This document shows positions 17,332-48,228 of a DNA stretch of 64,000 bases, piece by piece. Made by a program: the position numbers and the translations under genes. The notes under the pieces were generated by a model, which searched no databases, was not told where the DNA came from, and worked only from the letters and a program-made list of their open reading frames with translations. The stretch's first letter is position 1. Every line of letters begins with the position of its first letter. Source of the stretch: Segetibacter sp. 3557_3 (GTDB taxonomy: Bacteria > Bacteroidota > Bacteroidia > Chitinophagales > Chitinophagaceae); assembly GCF_004354985.1 (NCBI RefSeq), contig NZ_SMSK01000001.1:682001-746000 (forward strand), written 5' to 3'.

Positions 17332-17363
17332 TTTGTTTTTCTAATTCACGGGAGTTATATTTG
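17332..17363 (+). promoter_or_regulatory. Promoter of the ilv leader and operon
   Basis: A perfect Bacteroidota-type promoter: TTTG at 17332-17335, 20-base spacer, TATATTTG at 17356-17363 (TAnnTTTG). The likely transcription start falls around 17368-17371, only a few bases before the leader-peptide ATG at 17374. This lets the ilv genes be transcribed separately from leuACDB. Confidence 0.65.
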
Positions 17364-17373
17364 CTTCAACCTC

Positions 17374-17478
17374 ATGTTGAAAAGCAGATTACATAATGGC
17401 CTTACACTAGTCACCCGAATTATTGTGGTGGTCATTATAATTATTCCCGCTTTCACCGGAGGTGCACTCAGTATTTAA
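17374..17478 (+). CDS. ilv operon leader peptide (attenuator), 34 aa
   Basis: Reads MLKSRLHNGLTLVTR, then nine consecutive Ile/Val residues (IIVVVIIII, residues 16-24, codons at 17419-17445), then PAFTGGALSI and stop. Five Leu codons also occur. The Ile/Val run followed by proline and a GGAL-like tail is very similar to the E. coli ilvGMEDA leader (which I recall as VVVIIIPPCGAALG). It is directly followed by mutually exclusive antiterminator and terminator helices and by ilvE. Low charged Ile- or Val-tRNA would stall ribosomes on the run and open transcription. A control peptide, not expected to have its own function. Confidence 0.85.
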   Translation: MLKSRLHNGLTLVTRIIVVVIIIIPAFTGGALSI

Positions 17479-17510
17479 AATCTAAATCAAAATACTTAAA
17501 GCCCACCTCC
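17458..17510 (+). promoter_or_regulatory. ilv antiterminator structure
   Basis: GGAGGTG at 17458-17464 (inside codons 29-31 of the leader) is perfectly complementary to CACCTCC at 17504-17510, the left arm region of the terminator. A second helix, AGTATTT at 17470-17476 with AAATACT at 17490-17496, stacks inside it. Both helices cannot coexist with the terminator. A ribosome stalled on codons 16-24 would leave 17458 onward free, so the geometry fits attenuation. Confidence 0.8.
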
Positions 17511-17527
17511 AAAAAGGTGGGCTTTTT
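17498..17527 (+). terminator. ilv attenuator terminator
   Basis: Intrinsic terminator: AAAGCCCACCT at 17498-17508 pairs with AGGTGGGCTTT at 17515-17525 around a short loop, followed by a T-run. It lies between the leader peptide and ilvE, 20 bases after the leader stop. Confidence 0.9.
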
Positions 17528-17545
17528 TATTTCAACAACCTCGGT

Positions 17546-38059: not shown

Positions 38060-38143
38060 GTGATACCGACTCCGGAATATATTATCCCTTTTACGGTCAG
38101 CGTGGCTACCTCAGCTATTCGCATTATTATTGCAACCCGTTAG
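38060..38143 (+). CDS. Possible thr operon leader peptide (Thr/Ile-rich), low confidence
   Basis: A 27-codon frame from GTG at 38060: VIPTPEYIIPFTV then SVATSAIRIIIATR and TAG. Eleven of 27 residues are Thr or Ile, the two amino acids that control thr attenuation in enterobacteria. An 8-bp hairpin (38131-38138 with 38143-38150) covers its stop codon but is not followed by a T-run, and the start is GTG with no ATG in frame. A second Thr-containing frame (38152-38223) follows, and both carry ATATTATCCCT (38079-38089 and 38159-38169). Suggestive only. Confidence 0.3.
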   Translation: MIPTPEYIIPFTVSVATSAIRIIIATR

Positions 38144-41913: not shown

Positions 41914-43206
41914 ATGTTTTACTACAGTACCAATAAACAATCGTCAAAGGCAGACTTCAGGGAAGCAACCATTAACGGCCAGGCGCCTGATAAAGGCTTG
42001 TATTTTCCTGAACATATGCCTACTGTTCCTGCTGAAATGCTCAGCAACCTCGCCGGGTATTCCAAAGAGGAGATTGCCTACACCGTGATTGAACCTTATG
42101 TAGGCGACACCATCTCAAAAACGACGTTGCAAAAAATTGTCAGCGAAACAATCAATTTTGATTTTCCACTGGTAGCTGTTAACGAAAACATTTCTGCGCT
42201 GGAATTGTACCACGGACCTACACTAGCCTTTAAAGATGTGGGCGCACGATTCATGAGCCGGTGTTTGGGTCATTTTGTACAAGACAATAGCCGAAACGTA
42301 ACCGTACTGGTAGCAACTTCGGGCGACACCGGTGGTGCAGTCGCAAACGGATTCTATGATGTAGATGGCGTCAATGTCGTTATTCTTTACCCATCAGGAA
42401 AGGTGAGCAGCGTGCAGGAATTACAGCTCACAACACTGGGCAAAAACATTCGTGCTATTGAAGTGAACGGCACGTTTGATGATTGCCAGCAGCTCGTCAA
42501 GCAGGCATTCTCCGATACCGGTTTAAATGAGCAGGTCTTTCTCACCTCTGCCAATTCTATCAACGTGGCAAGATGGCTACCACAGCAGTTCTACTATTTC
42601 TTTGCATTACGTCAGTGGCAGGAAAGCGAGCCGCCGGTAATATGTGTGCCAAGCGGAAATTTTGGAAACATTTGTGCAGGCCTCCTGGCACACGTTTCAG
42701 GGCTGCCGGTGAAACATTTTATAGCAGCATGTAATGCAAACGACGTTGTACCCCGGTATCTGAACAACGGCACTTATGAAACCCGTTCGTCCGTTTCTAC
42801 GCTCTCAAATGCAATGGATGTTGGCAATCCAAGCAATTTCACGCGAATACTCGAAATGTTTCGCCACAGTTTTCCGGAGATAAAAGATGTACTCAGCAGC
42901 ATTAGTGTTTCCGATGAGCTTACACGGCAAACCCTAAAATCGGTACTGGAGAAATATGATTACCTCACCGATCCTCATGGTGCGGTAGGCTACTATGCAC
43001 TCGAACAATACCTTCAGCAACATCCGGGTGATAAGGGTATCTTCCTGGAAACAGCACATCCCATTAAGTTTTACGATGTAGTTGAACCCATTACTGAGAA
43101 AACGATAACTAAACCAGATGTCGTCACGGCTATCCTGAAGAAAACCAAAATGAGTTTCCAGATGGCCAACGACTACAGCATGTTGAAAGACTACCTCGTT
43201 AGTTAA
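41914..43206 (+). CDS. thrC: Threonine synthase
   Basis: 430 aa from the ATG at 41914, preceded by a purine-rich AGAAGAAG; the frame extends 46 codons upstream without family likeness. PLP enzyme converting O-phosphohomoserine to threonine. PLP lysine in ELYHGPTLAFKDVGARFMSR (about residue 107), LVATSGDTGGAVANGFYDVD, VILYPSGKVSSVQELQLTTL, and CVPSGNFGNICAGLLA for the phosphate loop. Completes thrABC. Confidence 0.96.
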   Translation: MFYYSTNKQSSKADFREATINGQAPDKGLYFPEHMPTVPAEMLSNLAGYSKEEIAYTVIEPYVGDTISKTTLQKIVSETINFDFPLVAVNENISALELYHGPTLAFKDVGARFMSRCLGHFVQDNSRNVTVLVATSGDTGGAVANGFYDVDGVNVVILYPSGKVSSVQELQLTTLGKNIRAIEVNGTFDDCQQLVKQAFSDTGLNEQVFLTSANSINVARWLPQQFYYFFALRQWQESEPPVICVPSGNFGNICAGLLAHVSGLPVKHFIAACNANDVVPRYLNNGTYETRSSVSTLSNAMDVGNPSNFTRILEMFRHSFPEIKDVLSSISVSDELTRQTLKSVLEKYDYLTDPHGAVGYYALEQYLQQHPGDKGIFLETAHPIKFYDVVEPITEKTITKPDVVTAILKKTKMSFQMANDYSMLKDYLVS

Positions 43207-43302
43207 TTCTCAATGTCAATACGTTTTTATTGAACGACGTTTAAAGTTCTTGCATTCGGTAATTAAATTTGGTTAAAAACTTCGCCATTTCTGAATCATA
43301 CT

Positions 43303-43310
43303 TATATTTG
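43303..43310 (+). promoter_or_regulatory. -7 element of the pheA leader promoter
   Basis: TATATTTG, a perfect TAnnTTTG box identical to the one before the ilv leader. The -33 part is weak: TTCG at 43281-43284 with an 18-base spacer. The leader ATG is at 43318, only seven bases after the box. Confidence 0.5.
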
Positions 43311-43317
43311 CCCCACA

Positions 43318-43389
43318 ATGAACAACACAATCGCTTTCTTTGGTTTTTATTATTACTTCTTTAGTAAGAAGCCGGGAAGCTTTTGTTGA
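43318..43389 (+). CDS. Aromatic operon leader peptide (attenuator), 23 aa
   Basis: Reads MNNTIAFFGFYYYFFSKKPG then SFC and stop. Residues 7-15 contain eight Phe or Tyr codons in nine (43336-43362), and a further Phe is near the end. A terminator and a complementary antiterminator follow, then pheA. This is the same logic as E. coli pheL, but with both Phe and Tyr, which suits an operon that makes both. A short hairpin CTTCTT/AAGAAG (43356-43371) overlaps the aromatic codons and could serve as the pause or 1:2 structure. Confidence 0.85.
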   Translation: MNNTIAFFGFYYYFFSKKPGSFC

Positions 43390-43429
43390 AACTGATTGAA
43401 TAAAGAAATCAACATAAAAACTCCCGGCT
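43370..43429 (+). promoter_or_regulatory. Aromatic operon antiterminator structure
   Basis: AGCCGGGA at 43370-43377, inside the leader codons, is perfectly complementary to TCCCGGCT at 43422-43429 in the terminator's left arm. An inner helix TGTTGA (43384-43389) with TCAACA (43409-43414) stacks inside, extendable through TTT/AAA with one bulge. The two-helix layout repeats that of the ilv attenuator. Confidence 0.8.
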
Positions 43430-43452
43430 CAAAAGGCCGGGAGTTTTCTTTT
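43417..43452 (+). terminator. Aromatic attenuator terminator
   Basis: 12-bp stem AAAACTCCCGGC at 43417-43428 with GCCGGGAGTTTT at 43436-43447, loop TCAAAAG, then CTTTTTG. Lies between the leader peptide and pheA. Confidence 0.92.
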
Positions 43453-43478
43453 TGTACCAATTACAACTTGCTTATCTG

Positions 43479-44306
43479 ATGGCGGTTAAGATTTCGATAC
43501 AGGGTTTTGAAGGCAGCTTTCACCAGGCGGCTGCTCAACATTTTTTTGGCGACGTAGAAGTAATCACTTGTGCAACATTCAGGGAAGTGGTAAAAATTGC
43601 CGGCAATAAAAAAGAAAGCGACGGTGGCATAATGGCCATCGAAAATTCGATTGCCGGAAGCATCTTACCAAACTACAACCTTCTTCAAAAAAGCAACCTC
43701 CGGATTGTCGGCGAAATTTACCTGCAGATCAAACAAAACCTGCTTGTAAACCCCGGTATTAAACTTGAAGACATCCGTGAAGTGCATTCCCACCATATGG
43801 CATTACAACAATGCCTCGAGTATCTCGACAAGTTTAACTGGAAACTGGTTGAAACAGAAGATACTGCACTTAGTGCAAAACATATACATCAAACCAGGAG
43901 CAAACATATAGCTGCCGTAGCCAGCAAACTCGCCGCTGAACTTTATAACCTCGATGTGATTAGTCCGAATATTCACACGATGAAAAATAACTATACACGT
44001 TTCCTGGTGCTGCAGCGCGAGGGTTCGTTTGAACCGGTTGCACAGGCCAATAAGGCGTCTGTAAATTTTACCACCGATCACTCGAAAGGCAGCCTGGCAA
44101 AAGTGCTTACGCGAATAGCCGACGCAGGGATCAACCTGAGTAAGTTGCAGAGCTTCCCTATACCTGGCAGCGATTGGAAGTATAGCTTTCACGCCGATAT
44201 GGAGTTTGAAAACATGCAACAATTTGATGTTGCCATTGAACAAATCAAGCCGGTAACCGAAGAAGTAAAAGTTTACGGCGTATACAAAAAAGGTAAAACC
44301 ATTTAA
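43479..44306 (+). CDS. pheA: Prephenate dehydratase
   Basis: 275 aa from the ATG at 43479 (MAVKISIQGFEGSFHQAAAQ); the frame could begin with TTG at 43452, inside the attenuator's T-run, which is unlikely. Converts prephenate to phenylpyruvate. Seen: GGIMAIENSIAGSILPNYNL, VHSHHMALQQCLEYL, NYTRFLVLQREGS with the catalytic-site Thr/Arg region, then a C-terminal ACT domain (LAKVLTRIADAGINLSKLQS) for phenylalanine binding. It has no chorismate mutase domain; that is fused to the DAHP synthase at the end of the operon. Confidence 0.95.
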   Translation: MAVKISIQGFEGSFHQAAAQHFFGDVEVITCATFREVVKIAGNKKESDGGIMAIENSIAGSILPNYNLLQKSNLRIVGEIYLQIKQNLLVNPGIKLEDIREVHSHHMALQQCLEYLDKFNWKLVETEDTALSAKHIHQTRSKHIAAVASKLAAELYNLDVISPNIHTMKNNYTRFLVLQREGSFEPVAQANKASVNFTTDHSKGSLAKVLTRIADAGINLSKLQSFPIPGSDWKYSFHADMEFENMQQFDVAIEQIKPVTEEVKVYGVYKKGKTI

Positions 44307-44312
44307 GCGGCT

Positions 44313-45476
44313 ATGAAACTATCGGATCGTTTAAACGGCATTGGTGAATATTATTTTTCCCAAAAGCTAAAGGAGATACAGGAGATGAACCAGGCCGGCG
44401 ACAATGTCATCAACCTGGGCATCGGAAGTCCTGACCTTCCCCCGCATCCTGATGTAATTAAAACATTGCAGGACGAATCGGCAAAACCAAATGTGCACGG
44501 CTACCAGGGTTATAAAGGTGTCGACATCTTACGGAATGCCTTTGCGTCATGGTATAATAAATGGTACGGGGTATCATTAAATCCCGTCACCGAAATTCTA
44601 CCGCTGATGGGTTCAAAGGAAGGTATCATGCATATTTGTATGACCTATCTTAACCAGGGTGACGAGGTACTTATTCCTAACCCGGGATATCCTACTTACA
44701 GCAGCGCGGTTCAGCTGGCGGGTGGTACCTGTATTACTTACGACCTTACCGAAGAAAACAACTGGTTTGTTGATTTTGAAAACCTGGAAACAAGGGATCT
44801 CTCCCGGGTGAAACTGATGTGGGCCAACTACCCCCAAATGCCTACCGGTCAATTGCCGGATACGCAGCAGTTTGAGGCACTGGTAGCGTTCGGGAAAAAA
44901 CACGATATCCTCATCTGTCACGATAATCCTTACAGTTTTATACTCAATAAGAATCCGATCAGCATATTGGCTGTGGAGGGAGCAAAAGAAACGGCGATAG
45001 AATTGAATTCACTCAGCAAGTCGCATAATATGGCGGGCTGGCGTATGGGGGTTATGGTGGGTGCAAAAGAACGCATCGAAGAAGTGTTGCGTTTTAAAAG
45101 CAATATGGACAGCGGCATGTTTTTGCCACTTCAGCTTGCCGCCGCCAAAGCGCTTTCGCTTGAGCAGGATTGGCTCGAACAGGTGAACGCAGTTTACGCC
45201 AACAGAAAGCAAAAAGCTTATGCCTTGCTCGATCTACTAAACTGTACCTACGCCAAAGAACAGGCAGGTTTGTTTGTATGGGCAAAAATCCCTGCCGGCT
45301 ACCAAAGCGGCTTCAAGCTAAGCGATGAAATACTTTATAACGCAAAAGTCTTTATCACTCCCGGCGGTATTTTTGGCCAGGCCGGCGACGGATTTATCCG
45401 CGTCAGCCTCTGCAGCCCTGAAGAAAAGTTTGACTTGTCCATAGAGCGAATACAAAAATTCTTAACAGCAAAATGA
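44313..45476 (+). CDS. Class I/II aminotransferase of the aromatic operon
   Basis: 387 aa, PLP fold type I. N-terminal FSQKLKEIQEMNQAGDNVIN, NLGIGSPDLPPHPDVIKTL, substrate-loop GYQGYKGVDILRNAFASWY, PLP lysine in LNSLSKSHNMAGWRMGVMVG, and the final Arg region FIRVSLCSPEEK. The sequence looks like the group that includes aspartate and LL-diaminopimelate-like aminotransferases. Position between pheA and tyrA implies it converts phenylpyruvate and 4-hydroxyphenylpyruvate to Phe and Tyr; this is from context. Starts 6 bases after pheA. Confidence 0.9.
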   Translation: MKLSDRLNGIGEYYFSQKLKEIQEMNQAGDNVINLGIGSPDLPPHPDVIKTLQDESAKPNVHGYQGYKGVDILRNAFASWYNKWYGVSLNPVTEILPLMGSKEGIMHICMTYLNQGDEVLIPNPGYPTYSSAVQLAGGTCITYDLTEENNWFVDFENLETRDLSRVKLMWANYPQMPTGQLPDTQQFEALVAFGKKHDILICHDNPYSFILNKNPISILAVEGAKETAIELNSLSKSHNMAGWRMGVMVGAKERIEEVLRFKSNMDSGMFLPLQLAAAKALSLEQDWLEQVNAVYANRKQKAYALLDLLNCTYAKEQAGLFVWAKIPAGYQSGFKLSDEILYNAKVFITPGGIFGQAGDGFIRVSLCSPEEKFDLSIERIQKFLTAK

Positions 45477-46312
45477 CCGTAACCATTATAGGTGTTGGCC
45501 TCATCGGCGGATCTTTGGCATTGGCGCTCAAGGACAATGGCCTCGCAGGCAAGGTGATCGGCGTTGAAAGCAATAACCATCATGCGCAACGTGCGTTAGA
45601 GCTTGGCCTGGTGGATGAGATTAAAACCTTGACCGAAGCCATTTCCAGCTCGCAACTGGTGGTATTGGCCATCCCGGTAACCCAGGTTATGCAGGCCTTG
45701 CCATCGGTACTCGACCATGTTACCAACCAGGTGGTAATGGACGTGGGTTCCACGAAAGAAGGGGTTATAGCAGCGGTAACCAATCACAAAAACCGGTCGC
45801 GTTTTGTAGCGACGCATCCTATGTGGGGTACTGAATACAGTGGTCCTGAAGCCGCCCAGCACCAGGCATTTCGCGAAAAAGCCACCGTAATTTGCAACCG
45901 GGAAGAAAGTGACGGTGAGGCTGTAGCGCTGGTGGAGAATTTGTACCGGCAACTGGGTATGCACCTGTTGTACATGAATGCAAAAGATCACGACGTACAC
46001 GTCGCCTATATCAGTCATATCTCCCACATTACGTCTTTCGCGCTGGCAAATACAGTTCTGGAAAAAGAGAAAGAAGAAGATGCGATCTTTGAACTGGCGA
46101 GTGCAGGTTTCGCAAGCACCGTGCGTCTGGCAAAGAGCAATCCCGCTACATGGACCGACGTTTTCCGGGAAAACAGGGAGAACGTGTTGGATGTATTAAA
46201 TGAACACATCAGCCAGTTGCGGAAGTTTAAAGCCAGTCTTGAGAAAGAAAACTATGAATACCTCGAAGAACTGATGACCAATGCAAACAAGATCAAGCGG
46301 ATCTTGAAGTGA
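45473..46312 (+). CDS. tyrA: Prephenate dehydrogenase
   Basis: 279 aa. Oxidative decarboxylation of prephenate to 4-hydroxyphenylpyruvate. Rossmann motif VTIIGVGLIGGSLALALKDN at the N-terminus, VMDVGSTKEGVIAAV, FVATHPMWGTEYSGPEAAQ with the catalytic His, and AYISHISHITSFALAN. No ACT or chorismate mutase domain. Its ATG overlaps the aminotransferase stop (ATGA at 45473-45476), so the two are coupled. Confidence 0.94.
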   Translation: MTVTIIGVGLIGGSLALALKDNGLAGKVIGVESNNHHAQRALELGLVDEIKTLTEAISSSQLVVLAIPVTQVMQALPSVLDHVTNQVVMDVGSTKEGVIAAVTNHKNRSRFVATHPMWGTEYSGPEAAQHQAFREKATVICNREESDGEAVALVENLYRQLGMHLLYMNAKDHDVHVAYISHISHITSFALANTVLEKEKEEDAIFELASAGFASTVRLAKSNPATWTDVFRENRENVLDVLNEHISQLRKFKASLEKENYEYLEELMTNANKIKRILK

Positions 46313-46337
46313 GAAAGGGAGTGATGAATGATGAACC

Positions 46338-46467
46338 AATGTCGTTTACTTAAGGTGAGTGGCAGAAATTGGTGATTAAAGGGATGCGGTACAAGGGAGT
46401 GACACAACGATGTCAAATAGAATTCCCACAGCTGGTCACCAAAGATTTCTCTTAAATAAACGACATT
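46338..46467 (+). repeat. MITE-like dispersed repeat, copy E, with terminal inverted repeats
   Basis: 130 bp. The ends AATGTCGTTTACTTAAG and CTTAAATAAACGACATT are inverted repeats of 17 bases with one mismatch. GAATGATGAAC occurs directly on both sides (46326-46336 and 46468-46478), like a target-site duplication, although the region is rich in GATGAA. The inside has GGTACAAGGGAGTGACACAA, CGATG and CAGCTGGTCACCAAAG, shared with other copies. No protein is encoded. Confidence 0.8.
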
Positions 46468-46520
46468 GAATGATGAACTATAAATGATGGATGACCTGGG
46501 AGGGCCAAAAAGTAGATTGA

Positions 46521-46583
46521 TTTTTTTGGGACCCGGCTGAAGAATTTCTATAGAGCATCGTTGCGTCGCACTCTTGTACTGCA
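46521..46583 (-). repeat. Dispersed intergenic repeat, copy F
   Basis: On the minus strand GCAGTACAAGAGTGCGACGC, AACGATGCTCTATAGAAATT and CTTCAGCCGGGTCCC then A-run; almost identical to copy D over 60 bases. It has no visible terminal repeats and lies 54 bases after copy E, in opposite orientation. Confidence 0.78.
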
Positions 46584-46659
46584 GTTACTTTACTGAACGC
46601 CGCGCTTTGTTTAATGAGAAGCTAATTGTTGAATAGGGTTTGTACTGACGAAGCACTTG

Positions 46660-46880
46660 GGAATGTTGAAGAGGAAGCTATGTTGAATGTTGTGTGTTAA
46701 ATGTTAACCGGCGAAAGCAGGTCGGGATGTTGAAGAAGAAGCTACTTTGAATGTTGTATGTTCAATGTTGAAGGGTTTGTACCAGCGAAAGCAGTTGGGG
46801 ATGTTGAAGAGGAAGCTATTTTGAATGTTGTATGTTCAATGTTGAAGGGTTTGTACCAGCGAAAGCAGTTGAGAAATTGA
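46660..46880. repeat. 74-bp tandem repeat, three units
   Basis: Units begin with GATGTTGAAGAGGAAGCTA or close variants at 46661, 46726 and 46800 (periods 65 and 74). Each includes TTGAATGTTGTATGTTCAAT, GTTGAAGGGTTTGTACCAGC and GAAAGCAGTTGG. Units two and three are nearly identical, so the array is recent. Confidence 0.9.
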
Positions 46881-46904
46881 AGATGAATTACCAGATGTTG
46901 AAGG

Positions 46905-47110
46905 GGTTTTGACTTTTGCCTTTGACTTTTGCCTTTTGATTTTTGACTTTTGACTTTTGCCTTTTGACTTTTGACTTTTGCTCTGCACATGATACTCAGC
47001 CGTACTACGTACCTTTATCCAACGTTATTATAACAGGGAAGTCTTTCTGCTGCAAAAGCTGCGGATTCTGACTTTTGAATTTTGACTTTTGACTTTTTAA
47101 TTTTGACTAA
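46905..47110. repeat. TTTTGAC/TTTTGCC simple-sequence tract upstream of the DAHP synthase gene
   Basis: Seven-base units of TTTTGAC, TTTTGCC and similar run from about 46905 to 46982 and reappear at 47070-47108, separated by unique sequence. A reversed reading gives a Lys/Ser-rich frame that is only a by-product. It sits between tyrA and the DAHP synthase gene and may contain its promoter. Confidence 0.85.
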
Positions 47111-47136
47111 ATTTTACGTTATCTAAATATAATACC

Positions 47137-48228
47137 ATGCAGGCAACAGACACGCATCAGGAGGTAAAACCTTTAGACCAGGTGTGGAACAAGCGACCAC
47201 TTATTATTTCAGGACCATGTAGTGCCGAAACAGAGCAGCAGGTGATGGAAACCGCACAAAGGCTGGCTGCCACCAATAAGGTTGACGTATACCGTGCCGG
47301 CATTTGGAAACCCCGTACCCGTCCCGGAAACTTTGAAGGGATTGGAACAAAAGGACTGCCCTGGTTACAACAGGCGAAGAAAACCACGGGCTTATTAACT
47401 GCCGTTGAGGTAGCTACTTCAAAACAATTGCAGGATGCCCTCCACTTCGACGTAGACATTGTATGGTTAGGCGCACGAACCACCGTTAATCCATTTAGCG
47501 TTCAGGAAATTGCCGATGCCCTGCGTGGTGTTGATGTTCCTGTTCTGATCAAAAATCCCATCAATCCCGATCTTGAACTTTGGATCGGTGCGGTAGAGCG
47601 GGTTGCAAAAGCTGGTATCAAAAATATCGGGCTCATCCATCGTGGATTTTCTTCATACGGCAACTCTGAATATAGAAATGCCCCTATGTGGCACCTGGCG
47701 ATCGAGATGAAACGCCGTTACCCCGAACTGATGATGATCAATGACCCGTCGCACATCTGCGGCCGCCGCGATATTCTTCAGGAAGTTGCTCAAAAAGCTA
47801 TAGACCTCGACTACGACGGCCTTATCGTTGAAAGCCACATCGATCCTGATAATGCATGGAGCGATGCCAAACAACAAATTACCCCCGAGCGCCTGAGCGA
47901 AATGCTTGAAAATATTATCTGGAGAAAAGAGGACGTTCAATCGGAAGAATACCACAACGCGCTGGAGAAGTTGCGTAACCAGATCAATCACCTCGACGAT
48001 GAACTGATGCAAATTCTTGGTCAACGGATGAAAGTTGCCGAAAAAATCGGCCAGTTTAAAAAGGAAAATAACATCACCATCCTTCAAACCAACCGGTGGA
48101 ATGAGATTCTTGAACGCGCATTCAGGAAAGGTGAAAAACTTGGATTAAGCAAAGAATTCATCACCCGCTACTTCGATGCGGTCCACCTGGAGAGTATCAA
48201 CCACCAGACCAGGGTTCTGAACTCCTAG
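47137..48228 (+). CDS. Bifunctional DAHP synthase / chorismate mutase (type II)
   Basis: 363 aa. Residues about 15-265: DAHP synthase of the KDO8P-synthase-like type (PLIISGPCSAETEQQVMETA, IWKPRTRPGNFEGIGTKG, WLGARTTVNPFSVQEIADAL, INDPSHICGRRDILQEVAQK). Residues about 280-363: chorismate mutase AroQ helices (LEKLRNQINHLDDELMQILG, RMKVAEKIGQFKKENNITIL). It thus catalyses the first step of the shikimate pathway and the chorismate to prephenate step, completing the pheA-tyrA branch. 824 bases of repeats lie between it and tyrA, so it may have its own promoter. Confidence 0.94.
   Translation: MQATDTHQEVKPLDQVWNKRPLIISGPCSAETEQQVMETAQRLAATNKVDVYRAGIWKPRTRPGNFEGIGTKGLPWLQQAKKTTGLLTAVEVATSKQLQDALHFDVDIVWLGARTTVNPFSVQEIADALRGVDVPVLIKNPINPDLELWIGAVERVAKAGIKNIGLIHRGFSSYGNSEYRNAPMWHLAIEMKRRYPELMMINDPSHICGRRDILQEVAQKAIDLDYDGLIVESHIDPDNAWSDAKQQITPERLSEMLENIIWRKEDVQSEEYHNALEKLRNQINHLDDELMQILGQRMKVAEKIGQFKKENNITILQTNRWNEILERAFRKGEKLGLSKEFITRYFDAVHLESINHQTRVLNS

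Follow-up and report, generated by a model that had tools for sequence, protein, structure and literature searches.

A putative phenylalanine/tyrosine attenuator ahead of the pheA operon in Segetibacter and its relatives, with a predicted near-leaderless start

The DNA ahead of pheA in Segetibacter sp. 3557_3 carries a short open reading frame crowded with phenylalanine and tyrosine codons and, behind it, an intrinsic terminator, which raises the question of whether a single switch reads the supply of both amino acids there. We propose, with a probability of roughly nine in ten and on the strength of sequence comparison, that the element is a ribosome-mediated transcription attenuator that would sense the charging of both tRNA-Phe and tRNA-Tyr. 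The features concerned are listed below with the evidence for each. All lie on the + strand of the window, by which we mean the whole 64-kb stretch of DNA that was analysed, taken from a genome of 6.75 Mb.

43303..43310, + strand: sigma-A -7 box TATATTTG (TAnnTTTG), by motif; predicted transcript start at 43315
43318..43389, + strand: leader ORF MNNTIAFFGFYYYFFSKKPGSFC, by sequence reading and the aromatic leader in relatives
43327..43386, + strand: protector hairpin 1:2, 43327-43357 with 43363-43386, by folding and partial cross-locus support
43336..43362, + strand: Phe/Tyr codon run, eight of nine codons, by sequence reading and a window-wide frame scan
43370..43377, + strand: region 2, the 5' strand of the antiterminator, within the leader ORF, by duplexes, folding and cross-locus comparison
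43384..43414, + strand: inner helix of the antiterminator, 43384-43389 with 43409-43414, by folding; weak across loci
43417..43453, + strand: intrinsic terminator 3:4 with its U tract, by terminator search and folding
43422..43429, + strand: region 3, common to antiterminator and terminator, by duplexes, folding and cross-locus comparison
43479..44306, + strand: pheA, prephenate dehydratase, ATG at 43479; PF00800 at 190.1 bits, over the cut-off
44313..45476, + strand: operon aminotransferase; NCBIfam matches it best to LL-diaminopimelate aminotransferase models, under their cut-offs
45473..46312, + strand: tyrA, prephenate dehydrogenase, scoring above the cut-off of a model for that enzyme
47137..48228, + strand: DAHP synthase-chorismate mutase, models below their cut-offs

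An earlier note, made from the sequence alone, had read the genes behind the element as a pheA-aminotransferase-tyrA operon, and profile searches bear out these identities, with the pheA product falling below the cut-offs of the NCBIfam prephenate dehydratase models. The DAHP synthase gene sits 824 bp past tyrA, and the order PheA, aminotransferase, TyrA, DAHP synthase recurs in full in 66 of 80 loci and as a shorter piece in the remaining 14. We further note that the intergenic stretch 46313-47136, from tyrA to the DAHP synthase gene, holds degenerate repeats, as judged by eye, and no ORF of 100 aa.

The leader MNNTIAFFGFYYYFFSKKPGSFC runs for 23 codons from the ATG at 43318 to the TGA at 43389, and its codons 7-15 (43336-43362) read FFGFYYYFF, with glycine as the sole non-aromatic residue. 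Both the leader and its eight Phe/Tyr codons in nine are as the earlier note had described them, and the run is unique: across the six frames of the 64-kb window it is the only nine-codon stretch with at least eight F/Y, and 40 first-order Markov shuffles of the window gave no such stretch.

Aromatic leaders recur widely ahead of pheA in the family. PheA was detected in 133 of 195 Chitinophagaceae genomes, from which we compared the DNA ahead of pheA at 87 loci (nine from the genus itself, 60 sampled at mostly one per genus and 18 chiefly divergent), counting a leader as aromatic if at least six of nine or ten codons were F/Y/W. By this measure 83 of the 87 loci have one, 67/69 in the first set and 16/18 in the divergent set. 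Four loci are exceptions. In L058 and L063 only 49 and 37 nt separate pheA from an ORF ahead of it; L269 has no aromatic leader and retains the terminator; the fourth is L271. The earlier note had proposed comparing pheA upstream regions for aromatic codon runs and covarying helices, and had counted relatives without run and terminator as evidence against an attenuator; runs and helices both recur in relatives, and the loci to be set against them are only these four of 87, L269 still with its terminator. One genome carries two pheA copies, L058 behind its ORF and L275 with a leader.

A second set of 80 named-record loci (PheA 63-84% identical; some of their genomes overlap the other family set) is labelled with Chitinophagaceae genera, Sphingobacteriales, bare Bacteroidetes, one Flavobacterium and one Ignavibacteriales. 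Where at least 200 nt of upstream sequence could be read, 77 of 79 have at least six Phe/Tyr codons in ten and a terminator, and L186 has five in ten and a terminator. Outside the family, 123 genomes contain PheA and loci were read from 62. Other families of the same order or class have the leader in 24/28 loci (23/26 and 1/2); in the four that lack it, another ORF lies shortly before pheA. Of 34 loci from farther away in the phylum, three have it. The leader search outside the family extended to 1200 nt upstream (to 700 nt at two loci and 251 nt at L126) and could miss leaders before distant operon starts; an ORF with six Phe/Tyr codons in ten lies far upstream in L105, has no terminator and was not counted. 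The three distant loci with a leader (L096, L097 and L098) encode PheA proteins 42-49% identical, as against at most 40% for other matches there, and a transfer of gene and switch together is possible. Similarly, the contig labelled Ignavibacteriales (L209) encodes a PheA 63% identical to that of the window behind the same kind of leader, and may reflect either horizontal transfer or misbinning.

The finer comparisons below use 154 distinct loci, namely 67 from the family, 65 from named records and 22 from other families; an earlier set of 158 had counted four loci twice (duplicates L139, L173, L196 and L200) and gave closely similar counts. The 18 divergent family loci were added later and are not part of the 154. 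Four loci with terminator-like stems on inspection were missed by the terminator rule and fall outside the set, three for having few G-C pairs (L074, L075, L080) and one for its long loop (L081). Also left out were L155, with 45 nt upstream, L207, which has a terminator and probably lost its leader at the contig end, and L073, L082, L089, L058 and L063, which have no leader and carry pheA close behind another ORF. In L268 and L277 a leader is present and the rule used finds no terminator.

Phe and Tyr codons occur together in 154/154 of these leaders, in keeping with the earlier note's view that mixed codons suit one operon making both amino acids. The closest competitor to our reading accepts the attenuator and supposes that it is tuned in practice to Phe or to Tyr alone, the other codons being neutral filler. 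Either residue can indeed be scarce, with a minimum of 2 Phe and 1 Tyr in any run, and the consensus of the Rfam Phe_leader reads as Phe codons without Tyr. Against this, the nine-codon run holds 4.4 Phe and 3.3 Tyr on average, and both residues persist in every leader. When leaders were compared in 56 pairs, each used once, the runs differed at 102 amino acids, and 70 of these differences were Phe-Tyr swaps and 32 were other changes, where only about one change in seven would be expected to be such a swap from single-base codon neighbours (counted from the code table and blind to mutation bias). The property conserved in the runs would seem to be 'aromatic', which fits a single sensor for the two products of one operon, and we consider tuning to one amino acid unlikely.

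The RNA behind and within the leader offers the alternative structures that a sensor of both amino acids would use. At the window locus the terminator stem (43417-43447) has 13 pairs followed by CTTTTT; the 12-bp stem of the earlier note is there, with one G-U pair added to 12 Watson-Crick pairs. Region 2, AGCCGGGA at 43370-43377, is complementary to region 3, TCCCGGCT at 43422-43429, over a perfect 8 bp, which confirms the competing pair claimed earlier, and the second helix placed inside it (43384-43389 with 43409-43414) does form when the antiterminator is folded. By prediction each of the three helices known from the classical scheme can form here, and their strengths are similar, with -17.6 kcal/mol for the 1:2 hairpin, -19.7 for the antiterminator and -21.9 for the terminator. 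The stretch 43290-43480 as a whole has a predicted folding energy of -43.7 kcal/mol, where shuffles average -31.05 (z -3.36), and one of 200 dinucleotide shuffles does equally well. The architecture first described stands in its run, terminator and competing helix; not included in that description were the 1:2 pairing between run and region 2 and the near-leaderless promoter placement, discussed below.

The competing helix is retained among relatives. Region 2 pairs with the 5' arm of the terminator at a mean of -14.2 kcal/mol over the 154 loci, compared with -5.8 in shuffles, and in 147/154 loci at most 2 of 50 shuffles match it. Region 2 starts 5-17 nt past the last aromatic codon in 149/154 loci as against 25% of shuffles, a position that was not imposed in the duplex search. 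Regions 2, 3 and 4 also change jointly, at least once in each of ten arm columns, in a comparison made partly circular by the selection of the best duplex at each locus. Arm column 6, for example, reads C/G/C in 131 loci and G/C/G in 9; column 7 reads C/G/C in 116, G/C/G in 6, T/A/T in 3 and A/T/A in 2; and column 8 reads G/C/G in 82, A/T/A in 6 and C/G/C in 4. Region 2 is seldom unpaired in core columns 3-6 and frequently so in outer columns (77/141 in column 0). By this comparison the antiterminator strand covaries with the terminator arms.

Other tests of the pairing vary in strength. RNAalifold predicted no pairs on two MAFFT alignments of the antiterminator (53 family and 22 class sequences), in our opinion because region 2 was aligned out of register, and per-locus duplexes with shuffles and swapped arms took the place of this consensus. 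In the swap test on 27 loci with unusual arms, native arms averaged -11.9 and foreign arms -7.7; the result is modest, as two family-consensus arms reached -11.0 and -9.8 and at least one foreign arm equalled the native in 20/27 loci. The 1:2 pairing has a mean z of -2.29 against codon-order shuffles, with 95/154 loci at 3/60 or better, and the inner helix a weak mean z of -1.20, with support in 38/153. The antiterminator region is weaker than the terminator in 73/158 loci (the set with four loci doubled), and L052 has leader and terminator and no good region 2.

The placement of these helices relative to the leader is also consistent with control by a translating ribosome. Region 2 precedes the end of the leader stop codon in 150/154 loci, and the terminator begins 13-50 nt (median 23) past the stop codon in 154/154, and so at least 12 nt beyond it in every locus; whether a ribosome at the stop codon leaves the terminator free was judged by the ribosome footprint. 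These positions fit an arrangement in which a ribosome on the run would leave region 2 free and one at the stop codon would leave the terminator free. Region 2 is read in all three frames, by 88, 34 and 15 of 137 loci with GGG, so that leader peptides end differently (RPG..., SSRVV... or KSRD...) over the same RNA, and it therefore seems to be the RNA and not the peptide that is under selection.

From this anatomy, its conservation and its covariation, we infer that the leader is translated, that transcription can terminate behind it, and that charging of either tRNA provides the signal, along the following lines. Transcription would start about three bases before the leader ATG, as the promoter box suggests, and the first ribosome would load close to the very 5' end. 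When either charged tRNA is scarce, this ribosome would wait at the 43336-43362 run and break the 1:2 hairpin, and region 2, now free, would pair with nascent region 3 and block the terminator, letting RNA polymerase enter pheA, the aminotransferase gene and tyrA. If both are plentiful, the ribosome would reach the stop codon, on or near the 5' strand of the antiterminator, or depart and allow 1:2 to re-form; in either case 3:4 would form and transcription would end at about 43453. This scheme needs kinetics, as do classical attenuators, because two equilibrium folds alone do not yield the right switch: in the stalled-ribosome state with the terminator complete, the terminator is favoured, and in the ribosome-free state with RNA polymerase just past region 3, 2:3 is preferred over 1:2.

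Two further readings deny the element this role, and both are highly improbable. In the first, the terminator is constitutive and accompanies a chance ORF, or it ends the transcript of thrC, which indeed finishes at 43206 on the same strand upstream of the element. A ThrC match is absent from all 80 named-record loci (flanks up to 5 kb), leader and terminator being kept nonetheless in 77 of the 79 readable ones; the promoter box lies between thrC and the element, and the competing helix covaries. Given that the element is kept in relatives without an adjoining ThrC, we reject this reading. The second, that a T-box or a riboswitch-type ligand sensor happens to hold an aromatic ORF, can draw on the element being structured and on amino acid genes being T-box targets in Firmicutes, and was rejected on an Rfam search in which no family reached its gathering score within the window and the T-box was absent among 46 matches up to E 5, with conservation mostly limited to the codon run, regions 2-4 and a short inner helix.

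Returning to the attenuator for both amino acids, its promoter suggests how a ribosome might reach the run. In Flavobacterium psychrophilum the TAnnTTTG box spans -12 to -5 of the transcript start (PMC9723704), and for the window box TATATTTG the predicted start at 43315 lies three bases upstream of the leader ATG at 43318; the -33 element is TTC and not TTG. An exact box stands 11-21 nt before the leader ATG in 99/154 loci, compared with 0.017 per locus expected over a 14-base range from the box frequency farther upstream. Boxed loci comprise 51/67 of the family, 47/65 of the named-record and 1/22 of the other-family loci, and many of the 55/154 without an exact box carry a close variant at the same place, as judged by eye. 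Of the 99 exact boxes, 71 have a TTG 21-23 nt upstream. The predicted 5'UTR measures 0-6 nt in 94/99 boxed loci and is longer in four, one locus shows a one-base overlap, and the median is 3; for these figures the leader was taken to begin at whichever in-frame ATG was closest to the run, a choice that may favour short 5'UTRs where two ATGs exist. The box stands at -12 in 11 loci and at -11 in one, and none is nearer in a scan to the ATG; such a sharp edge is expected if a transcript can do without its 5'UTR but must keep the ATG.

Ordinary genes in the same DNA are arranged differently. Their box most often falls 21-30 nt ahead of the first ATG, with 39 cases as against 11 at -18 to -11, and 0/19 of their strict promoters fall within the leader's box range, a background that is drawn from homologous loci, so that its cases are not independent. 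Leaderless mRNAs make up 5.5% in F. psychrophilum (PMC9723704), and 87% of predicted transcripts in F. johnsoniae carry leaders longer than 10 nt (PMC6847099).

The ilv element of the window (17356-17530) offers a comparison within the same DNA. Its leader (17374-17478) has a terminator behind it, and an I/V-rich leader with a terminator recurs in 17/20 family ilvE loci (L211-L230; L226 is cut by a contig end), much as the earlier note had described an ilv attenuator of the same architecture. Like the pheA element it joins a leader of product codons to a terminator, with Ile/Val in place of Phe/Tyr. The window ilv box stands at -18, giving a predicted 6-nt 5'UTR; boxes or variants in relatives lie mostly 22-28 nt before the ATG, by eye, and the five exact ones are at -18, -24, -25, -28 and -38. 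The boxes of other-family pheA leaders also sit further upstream. The idea that all family attenuators start near-leaderless was dropped on account of most ilv leaders, and we limit the claim to the family's pheA leaders because these ilv leaders and 21/22 class loci differ. The predicted near-leaderless start looks to be mainly a property of the Chitinophagaceae pheA leader.

We regard as evenly balanced the further proposal that this leader is a selected near-leaderless ORF, its promoter pinned so that the ATG falls 0-6 nt from the start, on which a ribosome would load without Shine-Dalgarno pairing and whose mixed run would make one sensor for two products. Bacteroidota lack Shine-Dalgarno sequences (PMC6847099), and if the proposal holds, loading once the RNA appears would give such a phylum the tight start-up coupling that attenuation needs.

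Separately, a Thr/Ile-rich short ORF (38060-38143, with a GTG start in the window) precedes thrA and is found by eye in about 17/19 family loci (L241-L259; L253 could not be judged and L257 is without). At nine loci these leaders have a hairpin over the stop codon, of the CAACCC-GTTAA-GGGTTG or ATCCGC-TAA-GCGGAT types, with no T run behind. This is perhaps an attenuator without an intrinsic terminator.

A conserved, covarying attenuator suggests that in Bacteroidota the coupling of transcription to translation is tight enough for regulation, and the element could serve as a natural reporter of such coupling and of leaderless initiation there. It further illustrates how one switch may serve a pathway with two end products, and the analysis supplies a precise annotation for an element that no Rfam model fits at threshold.

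Among known systems the closest in plan is the proteobacterial pheA leader of the E. coli pheL type (RF01859, Phe_leader), which likewise places a leader with end-product codons, alternative helices and an intrinsic terminator before pheA. Out of 4227 Rfam families Phe_leader matches the element best, at 31.6 bits over model positions 1-125; this lies under the gathering score of 55, with His_leader close at 28.8 bits, and two of 20 relatives searched with the model reach E 0.05 or better (40.3 and 39.3 bits). The element would work like Phe_leader yet, by its score below the Rfam threshold, is no member. The RF01859 consensus run holds Phe codons and no Tyr codon, whereas the Segetibacter leader mixes the two, and the element differs further in its terminator sequence, its predicted near-leaderless start and an operon that includes tyrA.

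Leaderless leader ORFs have counterparts elsewhere: polycysteine leaderless ORFs of mycobacteria were reportedly described by Canestrari in 2020. The peTrpL leader peptide of Sinorhizobium meliloti is leaderless, with a reported 5' end (PMC7298713). In both, as is predicted for our element, an attenuator ORF has its start codon at the transcript 5' end, although phyla and amino acids differ and the 5' end reported there is predicted here.

Nearest in phylum and gene is the pheA 5' element from the F. psychrophilum transcriptome, conserved in Flavobacteriaceae and with clues of a leader peptide (PMC9723704), of which the Segetibacter element is probably the counterpart. In the passages covered, the main text of that study gives no codon run, mechanism or Tyr for pheA, whereas the Segetibacter-type element is traced here across families with covariation, and its family form is predicted to be near-leaderless. 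Among the matches listed, no other Phe/Tyr leader of Bacteroidota is described, and the element may have been predicted earlier. The kind of switch is already known from E. coli trp and phe; what looks new is the combined Phe and Tyr sensor, its spread and its predicted near-leaderless start.
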